IMG/VR virus record: IMGVR_UViG_3300028569_002710
Span: 1 to 59,437 of that record
DNA: 59,437 nt
Reading direction: 5' to 3' (one strand)
From: a virus
The notes under the pieces were generated by a model. The model saw nothing but the letters and a program-made list of their open reading frames with translations, did not search any database and was not told the DNA's origin. A program made the translations under genes and the position numbers. Shown here one piece after another: positions 2,933-20,658 of the stretch. Position 1 is the first letter of the stretch; each line of letters opens with the position of its first letter.

Positions 2933-3370
2933 TTATTGACTTTCTTCTTTAATCATTCTTTTGGCTTGTTCGATAATCCTATTGCAATTAACGCAATATG
3001 GATCACATTTTTCAATTTCTTCCATCATTTTATTCATGCTGAAGTGAGTGAGATAAGAAACCACATATTCTCGTTCGGACTGATCTTTGCGTATGAACTC
3101 GATGCATTCTGGTCTTCCTTCTCCAGAAAATCCACATCTTTTACATTTTAATTTCTGTTTATAATTTGACAAGTGTCGAGCCAGATTCAATCTCTTGTTT
3201 TTATTTTTTTCATAATAGTCATTTTTGTTATCATTATAATGTTCTTTTGAAATAATTCTTTGACATGGTTTGCAAATTGTATTTTTCAATATGCTTCCAT
3301 CTTTTCTTGTTTTCTTTTTAGCAAATTCCTCTTCATTTTTATCAATTTTGCAAGCTCTACATGTTGCCAT
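2933..3370 (-). CDS. Zinc-binding HNH-like protein
   Basis: About 145 residues. It carries CRAC...CKPC near the N-terminus and further CKRC and CVNC pairs in the C-terminal half, so it has two zinc-binding units arranged as in the treble-clef/HNH proteins of phages. The start at 3370 is chosen because AGGAG lies 9 nt upstream, and it overlaps the end of the upstream HNH gene by 14 nt. A clear catalytic His pair is not obvious, so nuclease activity is uncertain. It lies next to the intron-bearing tRNA. Confidence 0.7.
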   Translation of the reverse strand: MATCRACKIDKNEEEFAKKKTRKDGSILKNTICKPCQRIISKEHYNDNKNDYYEKNKNKRLNLARHLSNYKQKLKCKRCGFSGEGRPECIEFIRKDQSEREYVVSYLTHFSMNKMMEEIEKCDPYCVNCNRIIEQAKRMIKEESQ

Positions 3371-3890
3371 GAGTAAGACTCCTGTGACAGTTGGCACAAA
3401 GGACATCACACTTTTTAACTTCATCTAACAATCTACCTTGTCCTAAATCTTTTCTTTCAGCGACATTAAAAGATTTAGTTTTTTCGTTTCTATGATGGAA
3501 ATCTAGAGCGGCCCAATGCTCTTTATATCCACATATTTTGCAACCTTTTTCAAGTTTAATTTCCCTCAGCATCAAAGTTGTTCTCTGCCTGTAATTTAAT
3601 TCAGGCATGTCACTATCCCTACATTTTGATCTGTCGGCAAAATCAATCCATTTATCTAGTTCTTGGATGGAATCCTCTTGATCTGGTATTGAATTGGCTC
3701 CTTTTTTCTTTTTTGGGCCAATTGAATTTAATTTTTTACGCCACCATTTGTTTGCAGCTAGGTATGAGTCTTCTTTTGTATTGGGAGAATTAAGTTCACT
3801 GCATGAAATCCTGTAGCGAACACCGTTATGCATTTTGACCCATCTATTCTTTGTCCCTCCCTCCCATGACATCAAGTATTGAGAACCCAT
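3357..3890 (-). CDS. HNH endonuclease
   Basis: 177 residues. The C-terminal 70 residues contain CKICG...ALDFHHR...LLDEVKKCDVLCANCHRSLTHG, a complete HNH/treble-clef nuclease with two CxxC zinc pairs and the catalytic DFHHR histidines. The N-terminal half (WVKMHNGVRYRISCSEL, basic) probably binds DNA. AGAGGG lies upstream of the ATG. It is translationally coupled to the following zinc-binding gene. Such genes in phages are typically free-standing homing endonucleases, which fits its position beside a group I intron. Confidence 0.85.
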   Translation of the reverse strand: MGSQYLMSWEGGTKNRWVKMHNGVRYRISCSELNSPNTKEDSYLAANKWWRKKLNSIGPKKKKGANSIPDQEDSIQELDKWIDFADRSKCRDSDMPELNYRQRTTLMLREIKLEKGCKICGYKEHWAALDFHHRNEKTKSFNVAERKDLGQGRLLDEVKKCDVLCANCHRSLTHGNM

Positions 3891-4066
3891 CGAATTAACC
3901 CTCTGGAAAAATTCAACTTAGTTGAAGTAATGGCGACTGACATCGCCGATCAACTTTAACATTCTTTTTTTTCAAAACAAGCTTGAGATTTACATTTTAC
4001 AATTTTTGGAAGAAGCTTTTCTGATTCCTTTACGAAAGCAACTTTTTTCTATAAGATTTAATTATA

Positions 4067-4226
4067 GAGAAGGCTGGACGAGAGAACTCATCTCGTTGTG
4101 GTGGTTGGGGTGGTTGCAGGCCCAACACGATGATTAACCGTTGAAGGTTTAACTCCAAGCCAGAGGTTGTCATACCGACAGAATCAGGACAGGAAGCGGT
4201 CCCGATGCTGCCACAACAGCCTTCTC
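4067..4226 (+). ncRNA. Candidate structured RNA (about 160 nt)
   Basis: In a 382-bp stretch without a gene, GAGAAGGCTG (4067-4076) pairs with CAGCCTTCTC (4217-4226). Inside it, a second 10-bp helix forms between 4095-4104 and 4208-4217, including two G-U wobbles that pair only in plus-strand RNA. At least five small hairpins nest within: near 4079-4097, 4105-4125, 4134-4152, 4168-4180 and 4187-4202. No open frame covers it. It does not match RNase P, tmRNA or 6S RNA by eye. The identity is unknown. Confidence 0.55.
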
Positions 4227-4235
4227 AAAAATTAA

Positions 4236-4272
4236 GATTGCCTCCCTCTATTATCTATCGAGGGAGGCAATC
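4236..4272 (+). promoter_or_regulatory. 13-bp hairpin sequestering the Shine-Dalgarno of the next gene
   Basis: GATTGCCTCCCTC (4236-4248) pairs perfectly with 4260-4272 across an 11-nt loop. The ATG follows directly at 4273. The only ribosome-binding site, GAGGGAGG, is in the 3' arm. There is no T-tract after the stem, so it is not an ordinary terminator. Translation control is inferred. Confidence 0.7.
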
Positions 4273-5199
4273 ATGAAGTTTTATGTTTACTCAAAATACC
4301 AATTAGAATCTAAGGTTCACGAATCAAAATGGGCATGCACTCCTCTTTTGCATGAACACATAGGAAAAAAGCCATTACTAAACAATTCTTTTCATCCAAT
4401 AGGTGATTTTTCTTTATTAAAGCAAGAAAATTCTGATGAAGCTGATTACTTCATTGTTCCTTATTTAATAAGGCACACACATCACTTCATGAATGATTCG
4501 ACTTTGAATGATCATTTACATGATAGCCTTCCTTACTTTTCTAAAAGTCCTGAGAAGCATATTTTCTTTATAGGATCTGATGATAACAGACCAATTAAAT
4601 GTCTTGAAAATTCTATAAAGTTTTCATTTTCAGTTAGCAAGAGCAGTGAAGACAAGTGTCTTTACTATCAGCCTGTTGTTTCTGTTCCAGAAAAGATATC
4701 TCCAATTATAATGGCCAACTATGACATTTCGTTCCAAGGATATCTTTGCAATGACCTGAGAAGAAAAGCCGCCAAACAATTAATTTCATGTGATTTGAAA
4801 ACAGTTGTTATCAACACAAGATATTGGTTTGAAAAGTTTATGCAGAATGATACGAAGGAAATTGAAAGAAATTATTGTGGTTTAATGCAGATGTCTAAGT
4901 TTGTATTATGCCCAAGGGGATTTGGTCTTTCATCTGTGAGATTTTTTGAAACACTTGCTTTTGGAAGGATACCAGTATTGATTTCTGATGATACTAAACT
5001 TCCTCTTGAGGGGGAAATTGATTATGACAAATTTATAATTCGTGTTCAGGAAAATGATCTTGAGAGCATTGAAAGCAGAATAATTGATTTCAAGAAAAAC
5101 AATGATTTAATGGAAATTTCAAAAACTTCTAGAGAAACATGGGAAAAATGGTTTTGCCCTGAAAAAATAGAAGATTTCATTGTAAATAGTTTATGTTAA
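4273..5199 (+). CDS. Exostosin-family (GT47-like) glycosyltransferase
   Basis: 308 residues. The C-terminal half carries the exostosin signature SKFVLCPRGFGLSS, RFFETLAFGRIPVLISDD near residues 212-245, which forms the nucleotide-sugar pocket in GT47 enzymes. There is no signal peptide or membrane span, so it would act in the cytoplasm, presumably on phage or host glycans. The acceptor is unknown. It overlaps the next gene by 7 nt, and its start lies directly after a strong hairpin. Confidence 0.85.
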   Translation: MKFYVYSKYQLESKVHESKWACTPLLHEHIGKKPLLNNSFHPIGDFSLLKQENSDEADYFIVPYLIRHTHHFMNDSTLNDHLHDSLPYFSKSPEKHIFFIGSDDNRPIKCLENSIKFSFSVSKSSEDKCLYYQPVVSVPEKISPIIMANYDISFQGYLCNDLRRKAAKQLISCDLKTVVINTRYWFEKFMQNDTKEIERNYCGLMQMSKFVLCPRGFGLSSVRFFETLAFGRIPVLISDDTKLPLEGEIDYDKFIIRVQENDLESIESRIIDFKKNNDLMEISKTSRETWEKWFCPEKIEDFIVNSLC

Positions 5200-6338
5200 T
5201 CAACTTTAAGAATTGGCTTGAGTCTGAAGAAGAATCTTCACCAAGTAATATACTAATGCCTTCAAGTAATATAATCACACTTGGATCAAAAAGAGATCCA
5301 AAAGTAAGTGGTTTTTGTTTGCACAATCCACAGATCAATAAATTTGCACAAGAAAACTCTACACAGATGTTCATGGTATTGGCATTTGTTCTTTATACAA
5401 TCCAAAAAGAGTGGCAAATTGTTAGGCAGACATTCCCTGATTTCTTAAAGTGGGTTTTTGAAGAAGCAATTCCAAAAGATAATTGGGATTACAGGGGACA
5501 AAGTTTTTCTAAATATGCACATATACTTGGCATGCATAAGATTCATTCTCCCAATGAAGCAGCGCATATGAGGAAGTTATGGGAGCAGAAAAACACAATA
5601 TACAGCACAGTCATGAGTTTGTTAAGTGGAAAAGTATCAACAAGTCTGACTGATTCATCAGAATTTGAAATATTCAAATATCTTGTGCAAAATGTTTCTG
5701 GTCTTGGGGCTGTAAAAGCTGCTTTTGCCTCACAATTAATTATTGGCAAATTTGGCTGTATAGATTCAGTCAACACAAGAGCATATTTCGACATGATTAA
5801 AAAAGATATTAAGAAGAAAGATAAAAAATCTGGCTTTAAGCTGGTAGACAGGAAAGACAAAGACGGGAAATTAATTAGAGTAAAGGGTAAAAAGGTTCAA
5901 GATATCGAAACCAAAGACAGTGTAGTAGGCCTAAAAGGCTACGTTGAGTTCCTTGATTCTCTACAGCAATTGTATGGAGATGATATTTCCAAGATTCTGT
6001 GGGATGACTGGTGTCAGATTGTTGGAGAGAAAATTGTCAAGGCTGGAAGCGATCATGACATAACATTAAAGGTTAACAATCAGGAATTTACAATTAATCC
6101 ATATGTTCCCAAGAGCAACCTTAGAACTTTGTTGAACAAAGAAAAAGAACACTTAGGTCTTGTTGATCCTACTGCAATAGGGACAGGAGTGAGTCTCGGT
6201 CACCTATCAGCCATTACGCAATCTGGAGACTGGAGAACGCCTCAGATCAAGGCTATGGAAAACTTTGACTCAAATGGTGTTGTCAATTTAATTGAAAGAA
6301 TCAAGGAAGAAATTATTCTTGCAATTGAAGAAGCTTGA
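5193..6338 (+). CDS. Protein with capsid-targeting-like N-terminus and HhH-glycosylase-like segment
   Basis: 381 residues. It begins MLINFKNWLESEEESS, matching the N-terminal motif of other proteins in this window (at 55755 and 7096). Residues about 165-200 read VSGLGAVKAAFASQLIIGKFG followed by CIDSVNTR. This looks like the helix-hairpin-helix plus VDTHV-type catalytic-Asp region of HhH-GPD DNA glycosylases. Most of the rest is unrecognised, with a Lys-rich patch at about 203-235. DNA-repair function is a weak inference. It overlaps the upstream glycosyltransferase by 7 nt. Confidence 0.6.
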   Translation: MLINFKNWLESEEESSPSNILMPSSNIITLGSKRDPKVSGFCLHNPQINKFAQENSTQMFMVLAFVLYTIQKEWQIVRQTFPDFLKWVFEEAIPKDNWDYRGQSFSKYAHILGMHKIHSPNEAAHMRKLWEQKNTIYSTVMSLLSGKVSTSLTDSSEFEIFKYLVQNVSGLGAVKAAFASQLIIGKFGCIDSVNTRAYFDMIKKDIKKKDKKSGFKLVDRKDKDGKLIRVKGKKVQDIETKDSVVGLKGYVEFLDSLQQLYGDDISKILWDDWCQIVGEKIVKAGSDHDITLKVNNQEFTINPYVPKSNLRTLLNKEKEHLGLVDPTAIGTGVSLGHLSAITQSGDWRTPQIKAMENFDSNGVVNLIERIKEEIILAIEEA

Positions 6339-7095: not shown

Positions 7096-7908
7096 TTACC
7101 TGTTGGTATTCCAATCACCTATTGTGGGTGGAAGACCTGCCCATTTTTTGGCTTGTGGCCATGTTTCTGGTTTGAAATCCTTTGGGTAAAAGCTCATAGG
7201 CTTTTTAGTATCTTTAGATGGTTCAACATTAATTACAGGTTCTGGTTTATAAGGAGGCACATAATAAGAAATAAATTCACTGAACATGTATGCTTTACTA
7301 CCAAAAACAACAATGGTTTTTAATGGATCACGAATTTTACCATCTTGTTCTAATTTTTTACATGCTGCCGCAGCAACTGAGATGGTAGGGTGTTTAGAGG
7401 TAGAATAAATTGCTATCAAATCAATTTGATTGAATATTCTTTTGAATGAATCCCCTATAGCTTCTAAATTTACACGTTCAGGCCAATTTGTCTGATCCTC
7501 TCCATATAAAAATCTTTTAATATTATCATTTGGAAGCCTTCTTTTTAATTTATCAAAATTAATCCTATAACCTATCCTGCCAACAGCAGCAACCACATCA
7601 GGACGTGTTTGGAAAATTTCATCATAAGCTTTCCGAAGCTTTAGCCCTATTATTGCGTCTTCTCTGGTTTTTGTATTAATTAAATTATCATGAGAACCTT
7701 CAGTTTTTCCAAAATAAGCTGTATCTGTAGATTCTAGATAAATAAATGGATCATGGGTTTCTGTAAGATCTCCATCTATGATCGAAGCGGCTGAAATCAT
7801 AACATCGTCATCTGGTTTCATGAATATTTCTAAACCATTTTTTACATCAGGGAAATAATCATCAGCTTCTCTTAAATTAAACCATTTATAAAAAGATAAA
7901 TTATTCAT
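7096..7908 (-). CDS. Unknown protein with capsid-targeting-like N-terminus
   Basis: 270 residues starting MNNLSFYKWFNLREADD. F-x-x-W-F-x-L-R-E|A has the LxE|A form cleaved by T4-type prohead proteases. The rest has no family I recognise. The C-terminus is Pro/Trp/Lys-rich (FYPKDFKPETWPQAKKW). It is convergent with the basic protein gene, 4 bp away, and lies 8 bp downstream of the small fibre-module gene. If the motif works as in T4, residues 1-14 are removed and the remainder is packaged. Confidence 0.6.
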   Translation of the reverse strand: MNNLSFYKWFNLREADDYFPDVKNGLEIFMKPDDDVMISAASIIDGDLTETHDPFIYLESTDTAYFGKTEGSHDNLINTKTREDAIIGLKLRKAYDEIFQTRPDVVAAVGRIGYRINFDKLKRRLPNDNIKRFLYGEDQTNWPERVNLEAIGDSFKRIFNQIDLIAIYSTSKHPTISVAAAACKKLEQDGKIRDPLKTIVVFGSKAYMFSEFISYYVPPYKPEPVINVEPSKDTKKPMSFYPKDFKPETWPQAKKWAGLPPTIGDWNTNR

Positions 7909-7916
7909 ATTTCCCC

Positions 7917-8171
7917 TTAAATTAATTCAAGAACCTTTGGTTCTTTGCCAATATAAGTTTCGTAGCATCTTATTGCCTTGCTTCCATTAAGAGTGAATGT
8001 ATCGCCATGTCTTAATGGTTTATGCCAATATGGAATGAGAACTTCAGTATTTTTTAATCCCAAAATAATATTCTCCATGCTGTTTGGCAATGTTTGACTT
8101 GCCAAAGCAACAGGATCAATAGTATTGACACGAAATGTATATTGGGGATAATCCTGCATGTTGTTAATCAT
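7917..8171 (-). CDS. Stand-alone copy of a shared about 80-residue fibre module
   Basis: 84 residues. From YTFRVN to KVLELI it aligns along its whole length with the C-termini of the two fibre-like proteins at 12913 and 13997. Shared features include SQxxPxSxEHIILxLxN, KPLKHGDTFTLxGxKAI and YIGKxPK. There is no extra domain, so this is the module by itself. It is likely a small beta-rich structural domain, perhaps an attachment or oligomerisation unit. The start at 8171 has no strong ribosome-binding site, and an in-frame ATG follows at residue 5. Confidence 0.7.
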   Translation of the reverse strand: MINNMQDYPQYTFRVNTIDPVALASQTLPNSMENIILGLKNTEVLIPYWHKPLRHGDTFTLNGSKAIRCYETYIGKEPKVLELI

Positions 8172-8852: not shown

Positions 8853-9027
8853 GAACATAAACCTCCTTGTTTATGGTGACATCTATATTTATTAATCTCA
8901 TGTTAATTTATGATAAAATTAGATAGAGAAATATAATTCAGTTTGAAGGAAAATGCACTTTACGAAATGAACAAACCACGGTATCTTCCATTTAGTGGTG
9001 ATTTTTTTTAAGTAAAGGGCATGAAAA

Positions 9028-20203: not shown

Positions 20204-20208
20204 TTTTT

Positions 20209-20246
20209 CTTGGTTAGAGATGCTAAATATATCATCTCTAACCAAG
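20209..20246 (+). promoter_or_regulatory. 14-bp hairpin overlapping the ribosome-binding site of the DUF1003 gene
   Basis: CTTGGTTAGAGATG (20209-20222) pairs perfectly with 20233-20246 across a 10-nt loop. The AAGGA site of the next gene begins inside the 3' arm, and the ATG is 8 nt later. No T-tract follows on either strand. Same architecture as the hairpin at 4236. Confidence 0.65.
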
Positions 20247-20253
20247 GATCATG

Positions 20254-20658
20254 ATGGAACAAGATTGCCGTACCTTGGGCGAAAAAGTCAGTGATGCAGT
20301 TGCCAAGTTCGGAGGTTCTTGGAATTTCATTCTATCTGGTTTTTTTATAATCCTAATTTGGGTTATATCTAACAACATTTATTTATTCTACCACTGGGAC
20401 GAATATCCATTTATTCTTCTCAACCTGTTTCTTTCCTTGATTGCAGCTTTTCAAGCGCCATTCATCATGATGGCTCAAAGAAGAGTTGAAGTAAAGCAGG
20501 ACGCAATTTACAGGGCTCTATTCAGAGAAATCAAGGAACTGGTAGAAATAGACCTTAATCTCGAACACGAGGTTTTGGAAACAAATAAAAAACTAGAACA
20601 GGAAATTCAACTAATAAAACAAATTCTAGAGAAGCCTCAGGCCGAAGAGACATTATGA
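20254..20658 (+). CDS. DUF1003 membrane protein
   Basis: 134 residues from the second of two adjacent ATGs, which has better spacing from AAGGA. GEKVSDAVAKFGGSWNFI, the helix pair FIILIWVISNNIYLFYHW and FILLNLFLSLIAAFQAPFIM, and MAQRR define DUF1003. The C-terminal 50 residues form a Glu/Lys coiled coil. It is an inner-membrane protein of unknown function found in many bacteria. It overlaps the downstream HNH gene by 4 nt. Confidence 0.85.
   Translation: MEQDCRTLGEKVSDAVAKFGGSWNFILSGFFIILIWVISNNIYLFYHWDEYPFILLNLFLSLIAAFQAPFIMMAQRRVEVKQDAIYRALFREIKELVEIDLNLEHEVLETNKKLEQEIQLIKQILEKPQAEETL

Follow-up and report, generated by a model that had tools for sequence, protein, structure and literature searches.

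The locus

The window, i.e. the whole stretch of DNA that was analysed, comprises 59,437 bases of an IMG/VR virus record and has a GC content of 35.5%. It is a linear fragment of a large phage, in which PhoH, ClpX-like, sigma-factor and HNH genes are present. Between an HNH ORF on the minus strand (3357-3890, with its start at 3890) and a GT47 exostosin-like glycosyltransferase gene on the plus strand (Table 1) there are 382 bases without a convincing gene, in agreement with the non-coding stretch of about 380 bp reported in a preliminary description made from this sequence alone. The RNA considered here occupies positions 4067-4226 of this stretch.

Two neighbouring HNH endonuclease genes of phrog_2255 (2933-3890, minus strand) directly adjoin the RNA; genes of this type are often mobile. 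Further upstream ARAGORN calls a tRNA-Ile (anticodon tat) at 2480-2554, which the Rfam tRNA model does not report at its gathering score.

Folding of the segment in the window

Compared with 495 plus-strand windows of 160 nt, segment 4067-4226 has the lowest folding energy, -60.3 kcal/mol; its z-score is about -2.9, which places it 28th, with 27 windows better. Folding energy alone is no proof of a functional RNA, since the z-score reaches only that rank and the minus strand folds equally well (-60.2). The two long helices of 10 bp each that had been proposed are present as P1 and P2, and the inner one, P2, credited with two G-U pairs, holds three. Hairpins do lie within these helices, though not the five or more that had been counted: the fold supported by covariation has four arms, namely P1a, P3, P4 with its inner hairpin P4a, and P5. 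In the single-sequence minimum-energy fold of the window several small hairpins take the place of P4; this fold is more stable than the conserved one by 3.4 kcal/mol.

Relatives of the RNA in other phages

The search started from the protein encoded after the GT47 gene (5193-6338), which led to the IMG/VR contigs L002 and L003. At the syntenic place of both contigs nhmmer found a similar stretch, with the RNA in the same place and on the same strand before the same GT47 gene. In L002 it spans 4931-5087 and is followed by GT47 (59% identical to that of the window) and then by the same next gene. The window and L002 contigs belong to related phages, 71 window ORFs having homologues, the strongest of them mostly 50-77% identical. 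Close relatives of the GT47 protein were found in IMG/VR only in L002 and L003, and GenBank phages gave only weak partial matches. The contigs L004 to L009, which carry more distant relatives of the neighbour protein, contain no match to the RNA models, and the GT47 gene is not at the corresponding place in L004 and L009, the two with ORFs listed.

A third lineage was obtained by running a degenerate pattern, built on J4/5 and the P5 loop, over IMG/VR and filtering the matches with covariance model R1, made from the window and L002. It consists of L057, L065, L076 and L080 and scores 51.8 bits (E 5.7e-10) with R1, which was built without it. Pre-selection by the pattern extended only to J4/5 and the 5′ half of P5; as far as P2, P3 and P4 are concerned, the match owes nothing to the pattern. 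The phage of this lineage has a GC content of 47% and only three protein matches to the window phage (PhoH, at 48%, and two others). The gene that follows its RNA is small and unrelated to GT47; in L076 it encodes a 73-aa early-type protein.

Several other candidates were rejected. The pattern AACACGATG..CATACCnACA gave 39 matches, all coding or unrelated except those in L013/L014, which are the L002/L003 contigs. The match of model R2 to the 595-kb phage LR756511 (21.6 bits) lies antisense within a kinase-like gene and has most of P2 broken, and four pattern matches in bacterial or archaeal genomes were ruled out by the model. A blastn search of GenBank phages found no match, nor did R2 in 450 bacterial genomes from two phyla (52 and 398); the latter result says little, because the hosts are unknown. 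The comparison rests on just three sequences that are independent, and two of these belong to a single phage clade; E-values are rough, and records very close to the window's own genome may be missing from the searched collections.

Two observations concern the regions upstream of the relatives. In L002 a group I intron-like stretch (4596-4866; RF00028, 22.7 bits, E 0.0016, below gathering) lies 5′ of the RNA beside an apparent tRNA 3′ half, with a terminator after that; it is possibly an intron-split tRNA gene. In L076 a GC-rich hairpin, GCGGG/CCCGC (7735-7768), lies directly 5′ of the RNA and is invariant across the four contigs of the third lineage.

Covariation

Since MAFFT alone misplaces the outer helices, N placeholders were used to steer the alignment and P1a, present only in the window, was left out; both controls, slid and shuffled, used this steered alignment too. 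Between the window and L002, P1 included and with the single-stranded landmarks as guides for aligning them, 41 of the 42 pairs are kept in both sequences, 17 having changed on both sides and 7 showing a compatible one-sided change; when the partners are slid by 1-3 columns, the share of paired cells falls from 98.8% to 32-46%. Core alignment A8, with three sequences, has 95 of its 96 cells paired; half of the pairs (16/32) are double-changed and several exist in three different versions. Across both alignments slid partners pair in 27-46% of the cells, versus 99% for those left unslid. Given alignment A8 alone, without any structure supplied, RNAalifold returned the same helices.

A lack of covariation in relatives had been named beforehand as the result that would refute the RNA; what we find is strong covariation. 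From these comparisons we consider it confirmed that the plus strand of 4067-4226 encodes a real, conserved structured RNA, as had been suggested. A chance fold of a GC-rich stretch without functional RNA would fit the modest z-score and the equally stable minus strand, but it is practically excluded, and already refuted, by covariation in three lineages that is lost when the partners are slid and by the RNAalifold fold. The same alignments bear on the strand. The plus strand had been inferred from the G-U pairs of a single sequence, a weak argument because the minus strand folds equally well. The inference was nevertheless right: the relatives pair in 95/96 cells on the plus strand and in 82/96 on the minus, and by this measure the functional strand is the plus strand.

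Architecture of the RNA

The RNA is a four-way junction of P2, P3, P4 (with P4a) and P5, closed by the 10-bp helix P1 in two of the lineages (Table 1). No nucleotide separates P5, a helix of eight pairs, from P2, while six nucleotides form J3/4 and nine form J4/5. The junction strands, ACG at the end of J3/4 and ACCnACAnA in J4/5, the P5 loop AGGA, and three inner pairs each in P4 and P5 are near-invariant, whereas the outer pairs covary freely. As judged from the alignments, the centre of the RNA is tightly constrained and its arms change freely. The UCC of the P4a loop and the GGA of the P5 loop could pair if P4 and P5 lay side by side; this contact stays an inference because both motifs are invariant and hence show no covariation.

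Table 1. Elements of the structured RNA and of the region downstream of it, in window coordinates
Element	Position	Strand	Basis or remark
Possible outward extension of P1, 5′ strand UUAAUU	4058-4063 (partner 4230-4235)	+	Leader fold; absent in L002
P1, 5′ strand, 10 bp with 4217-4226	4067-4076	+	Window vs L002: 8/10 pairs double-changed, 10/10 kept
P1a hairpin, CGAGA/UCUCG	4079-4095	+	Fold only; window-only (L002 has AGA), so no covariation evidence
P2, 5′ strand, 8 conserved pairs plus UU/AA extension, with 4207-4216	4096-4105	+	Covariation, three lineages
P3 hairpin, 4 bp GGGU/GCCC, loop length varies	4108-4123	+	4/4 pairs double-changed in at least one relative
J3/4, AACACG, ACG invariant	4124-4129	+	Alignment A8
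P4, 9 bp, one bulged U in the window, inner hairpin P4a at 4146-4161	4130-4173	+	5/9 pairs double-changed, all kept
UCC in P4a loop, possible loop-loop contact with GGA 4192-4194	4154-4156	+	Three lineages; contact inferred
J4/5, ACC(A/G)ACA(C/G)A, near-invariant single strand	4174-4182	+	Alignment
P5 hairpin, loop AGGA..CG conserved	4183-4206	+	2 pairs double-changed; one A-C mismatch in the window
P2, 3′ strand	4207-4216	+	Covariation and fold
P1, 3′ strand	4217-4226	+	Window/L002 alignment
13-bp SD-masking hairpin, SD GGGAGG at 4262-4267, ends at ATG	4236-4272	+	Leader fold
GT47 exostosin-like glycosyltransferase gene, 308 aa, 3′ of the RNA	4273-5199	+	Pfam PF03016, E 2.9e-23

Relation to known RNAs

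To our knowledge, few well-defined structured RNAs other than tRNAs and introns exist in phage genomes. The statement that the RNA belongs to no recognised family holds against Rfam for the window, L002 and L076 copies. With Rfam 15 the whole window has no match at the gathering thresholds and the site has none at E<=10; for the sites of the window, L002 and L076 the best chance matches reach 9-20 bits, far below the cut-offs. A superficial likeness to SRP RNA, tmRNA, tRNA and group I introns lies in a GGA(A)GC-like loop and in the cloverleaf-like four-way junction, but the RNA differs from them in lacking any Rfam match and any tRNA or tmRNA call by ARAGORN at the site. The SRP likeness (GGAAGC) is accordingly unsupported by Rfam, and that to the tRNA cloverleaf by either Rfam, including its tRNA model, or ARAGORN.

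The closest published objects are the manA (RF01745) and wcaG (RF01761) motifs, structured RNAs of large phages that lie in the 5′ leaders of genes concerned with sugars or exopolysaccharides and have been proposed to be riboswitches (PMC2864571). The setting is alike, a glycosyltransferase gene following the RNA in two lineages (46 nt downstream in the window and 23 nt in L002), which is not so in L076. The RNA differs from manA and wcaG in its four-way junction, in its own conserved strands and in its occurrence before an unrelated gene as well, and neither model matches the window, L002 or L076 even at E<=10. As the resemblance is one of setting and not a model match, the RNA is filed as a new family, a phage structured leader or non-coding RNA whose function is inferred. 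Riboswitches in which loop-loop contacts join parallel helices, such as the purine riboswitch, offer an analogy: conservation centred on the junction, a pair of helices nearly equal in length (P4 of 9 bp, P5 of 8 bp) with complementary loops, and a hairpin downstream that blocks expression. Here, however, there are four helices instead of three, no common sequence and no known ligand, and the loop-loop contact is unproven.

Hairpins between the RNA and the next gene

In each of the three lineages a hairpin that would be inhibitory comes after the RNA, and next, on the strand of the RNA, an ORF. The masked ribosome-binding site pointed out in the preliminary description is borne out in the window, where the 13-bp hairpin directly before the GT47 start codon encloses the SD; its loop is AT-rich, TATTATCTATC. 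In L002 a shorter and weaker hairpin holds the start codon. In L076 the corresponding element is a GC-rich intrinsic terminator of nine pairs (7939-7963) with a T-run, about 14 nt before the ATG at 7981 and with the SD in between; this arrangement leaves little room for a promoter, so the gene probably needs read-through. The four contigs of the third lineage have no variable site in the 264 nt between the upstream ORF and the ATG, whereas 11.5% of sites vary in the flanking ORFs.

The leader folds as two independent domains, and no convincing alternative structure was found that couples the junction to the downstream hairpin. A switch in which P1 and the SD hairpin would exchange strands, considered by hand, was dropped because the SD is paired in both states.

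A model for the function of the RNA

Considering (i) the covariation, (ii) the same place and strand before GT47 in L002 and L003, (iii) a third lineage recovered by a model built without it, and (iv) the hairpins that precede all three genes, we propose that the RNA is a cis-acting phage leader, riboswitch-like or protein-responsive, a reading that we hold with slightly more conviction than doubt, in the absence of transcript data and with ligand and function inferred. In the model, a phage mRNA would carry the RNA as its 5′ leader domain, and the RNA would act in cis on the next gene. The junction, made up of the strands J3/4 and J4/5 together with those inner pairs that are conserved in P4 and P5, would bind a small molecule or a protein while P4 and P5, side by side, touch through UCC and GGA, and binding would alter whether the downstream hairpin forms. 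The genes under control would differ, GT47 in the window and L002 and the 73-aa protein in L076. The RNA thus conceived probably helps to decide whether the next gene is switched on, its function being inferred. Two features expected of a riboswitch are at hand, a conserved structured domain with conserved junction nucleotides and an expression platform before the gene, and junctions as compact and highly conserved as this one are the kind to which a ligand or a protein binds. Against the cis-acting leader count the absence of a convincing switch, a second SD-masking hairpin in the window (before gene 20251, see below) that does without this RNA, the different downstream genes and the small number of independent sequences.

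A more specific version, which we entertain only tentatively, is a riboswitch class particular to large phages, in which a four-way-junction aptamer, its ligand binding inferred, would sense a metabolite or signal of the infection state and control unrelated genes through whatever platform lies downstream. Strongly supported by covariation and present in two phage groups with scarcely any proteins in common otherwise, the RNA is a testable candidate for the means by which large phages monitor the infected cell's state or set the timing of their genes, and model R2 and the consensus can be used directly for annotating other phages.

The main rival is a free-standing small RNA acting in trans, which would bind a protein or base-pair with host or phage RNA, P1 marking its ends and the gene being a mere neighbour. 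It remains possible, with less support than the cis-acting leader: the downstream genes are not alike between lineages, the strong terminator after the RNA in L076 is equally expected of a free small RNA, a long helix closes the RNA in the window and L002, and the RNA is GC-rich (about 51-55%) within a genome of 35% GC. A small RNA of this kind does not account for the position always directly 5′ of a same-strand ORF with an expression-blocking hairpin in between, and no consensus sigma-70 promoter lies right before the RNA, in a scan that omits phage promoters. Moreover, in the third lineage the linker, terminator and SD vary no more than the RNA does; because all of them are conserved together the cis-acting leader is favoured.

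Control could also reside only in the hairpin before GT47, as a T4-like device that masks the ribosome-binding site and keeps read-through transcripts silent until transcription begins within it from a later promoter; the junction RNA would then be unrelated. The hairpin meets the T4-type criterion, being stable, with the SD inside and just before the start codon, and such hairpins are known for T4-type phages, e.g. that of mobE of phage Aeh1 (referred to in PMC3014915). As to a late transcript start within it, the loop is AT-rich, but no promoter motif of the window phage could be established. The likeness to mobE covers the hairpin only, and the covarying junction RNA has no counterpart there. 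In the window a 16-bp hairpin with an AT-rich loop (20207-20258) likewise masks the SD of gene 20251-20658, which encodes a small membrane-like protein and has no such RNA, so that the RNA is not necessarily what drives the hairpin at 4236-4272. The related phage (L148, about 378-443) keeps the hairpin of the 20251 type with a different stem, and RBS-masking hairpins therefore seem to be a means of control that recurs in this phage group; that before GT47 may be one instance of a general T4-like device of the window phage. As the whole explanation this is rather unlikely, as it leaves unexplained the conserved junction RNA and its recurrence beside the terminator of L076.

Somewhat less likely still is that the RNA binds a phage or host RNA-binding protein, for example a translational repressor, or a CsrA-like protein at CAGGA of P5, and serves autoregulation instead of small-molecule sensing. 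This would be a sub-case of cis action or of a sponge, overlapping both the cis and the trans readings, so that our degrees of confidence in the rivals are not exclusive. CsrA targets and sponges usually carry several GGA sites, and just one such loop is found here; its CAGGA is invariant, which speaks for the proposal, but a protein that binds the loop leaves the conserved junction strands unexplained. mRNAs of T4 and similar phages are regulated by RNA-binding repressors (PMC3014915), which counts in favour of a bound protein.

A recurrent N-terminal motif

Apart from the RNA, an N-terminal motif like M-x-x-F-K-x-W-L/F-x-x-E is common to several seemingly unrelated proteins of these phages. 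Its sites lie at 5193, 7096 and 55755 in the window, at 5998, 6750, 7619 and 12451 in L148, at 9236 and 10001 in L004, and at 9016, 9447 and 10004 in L009; a strict regular expression retrieves it in only 3 of 85 ORFs of the window and 7 of 125 of the relative. We take the motif to resemble the capsid-targeting sequence of T4 internal proteins, and one possibility is that it is a leader for packaging proteins into the phage head.
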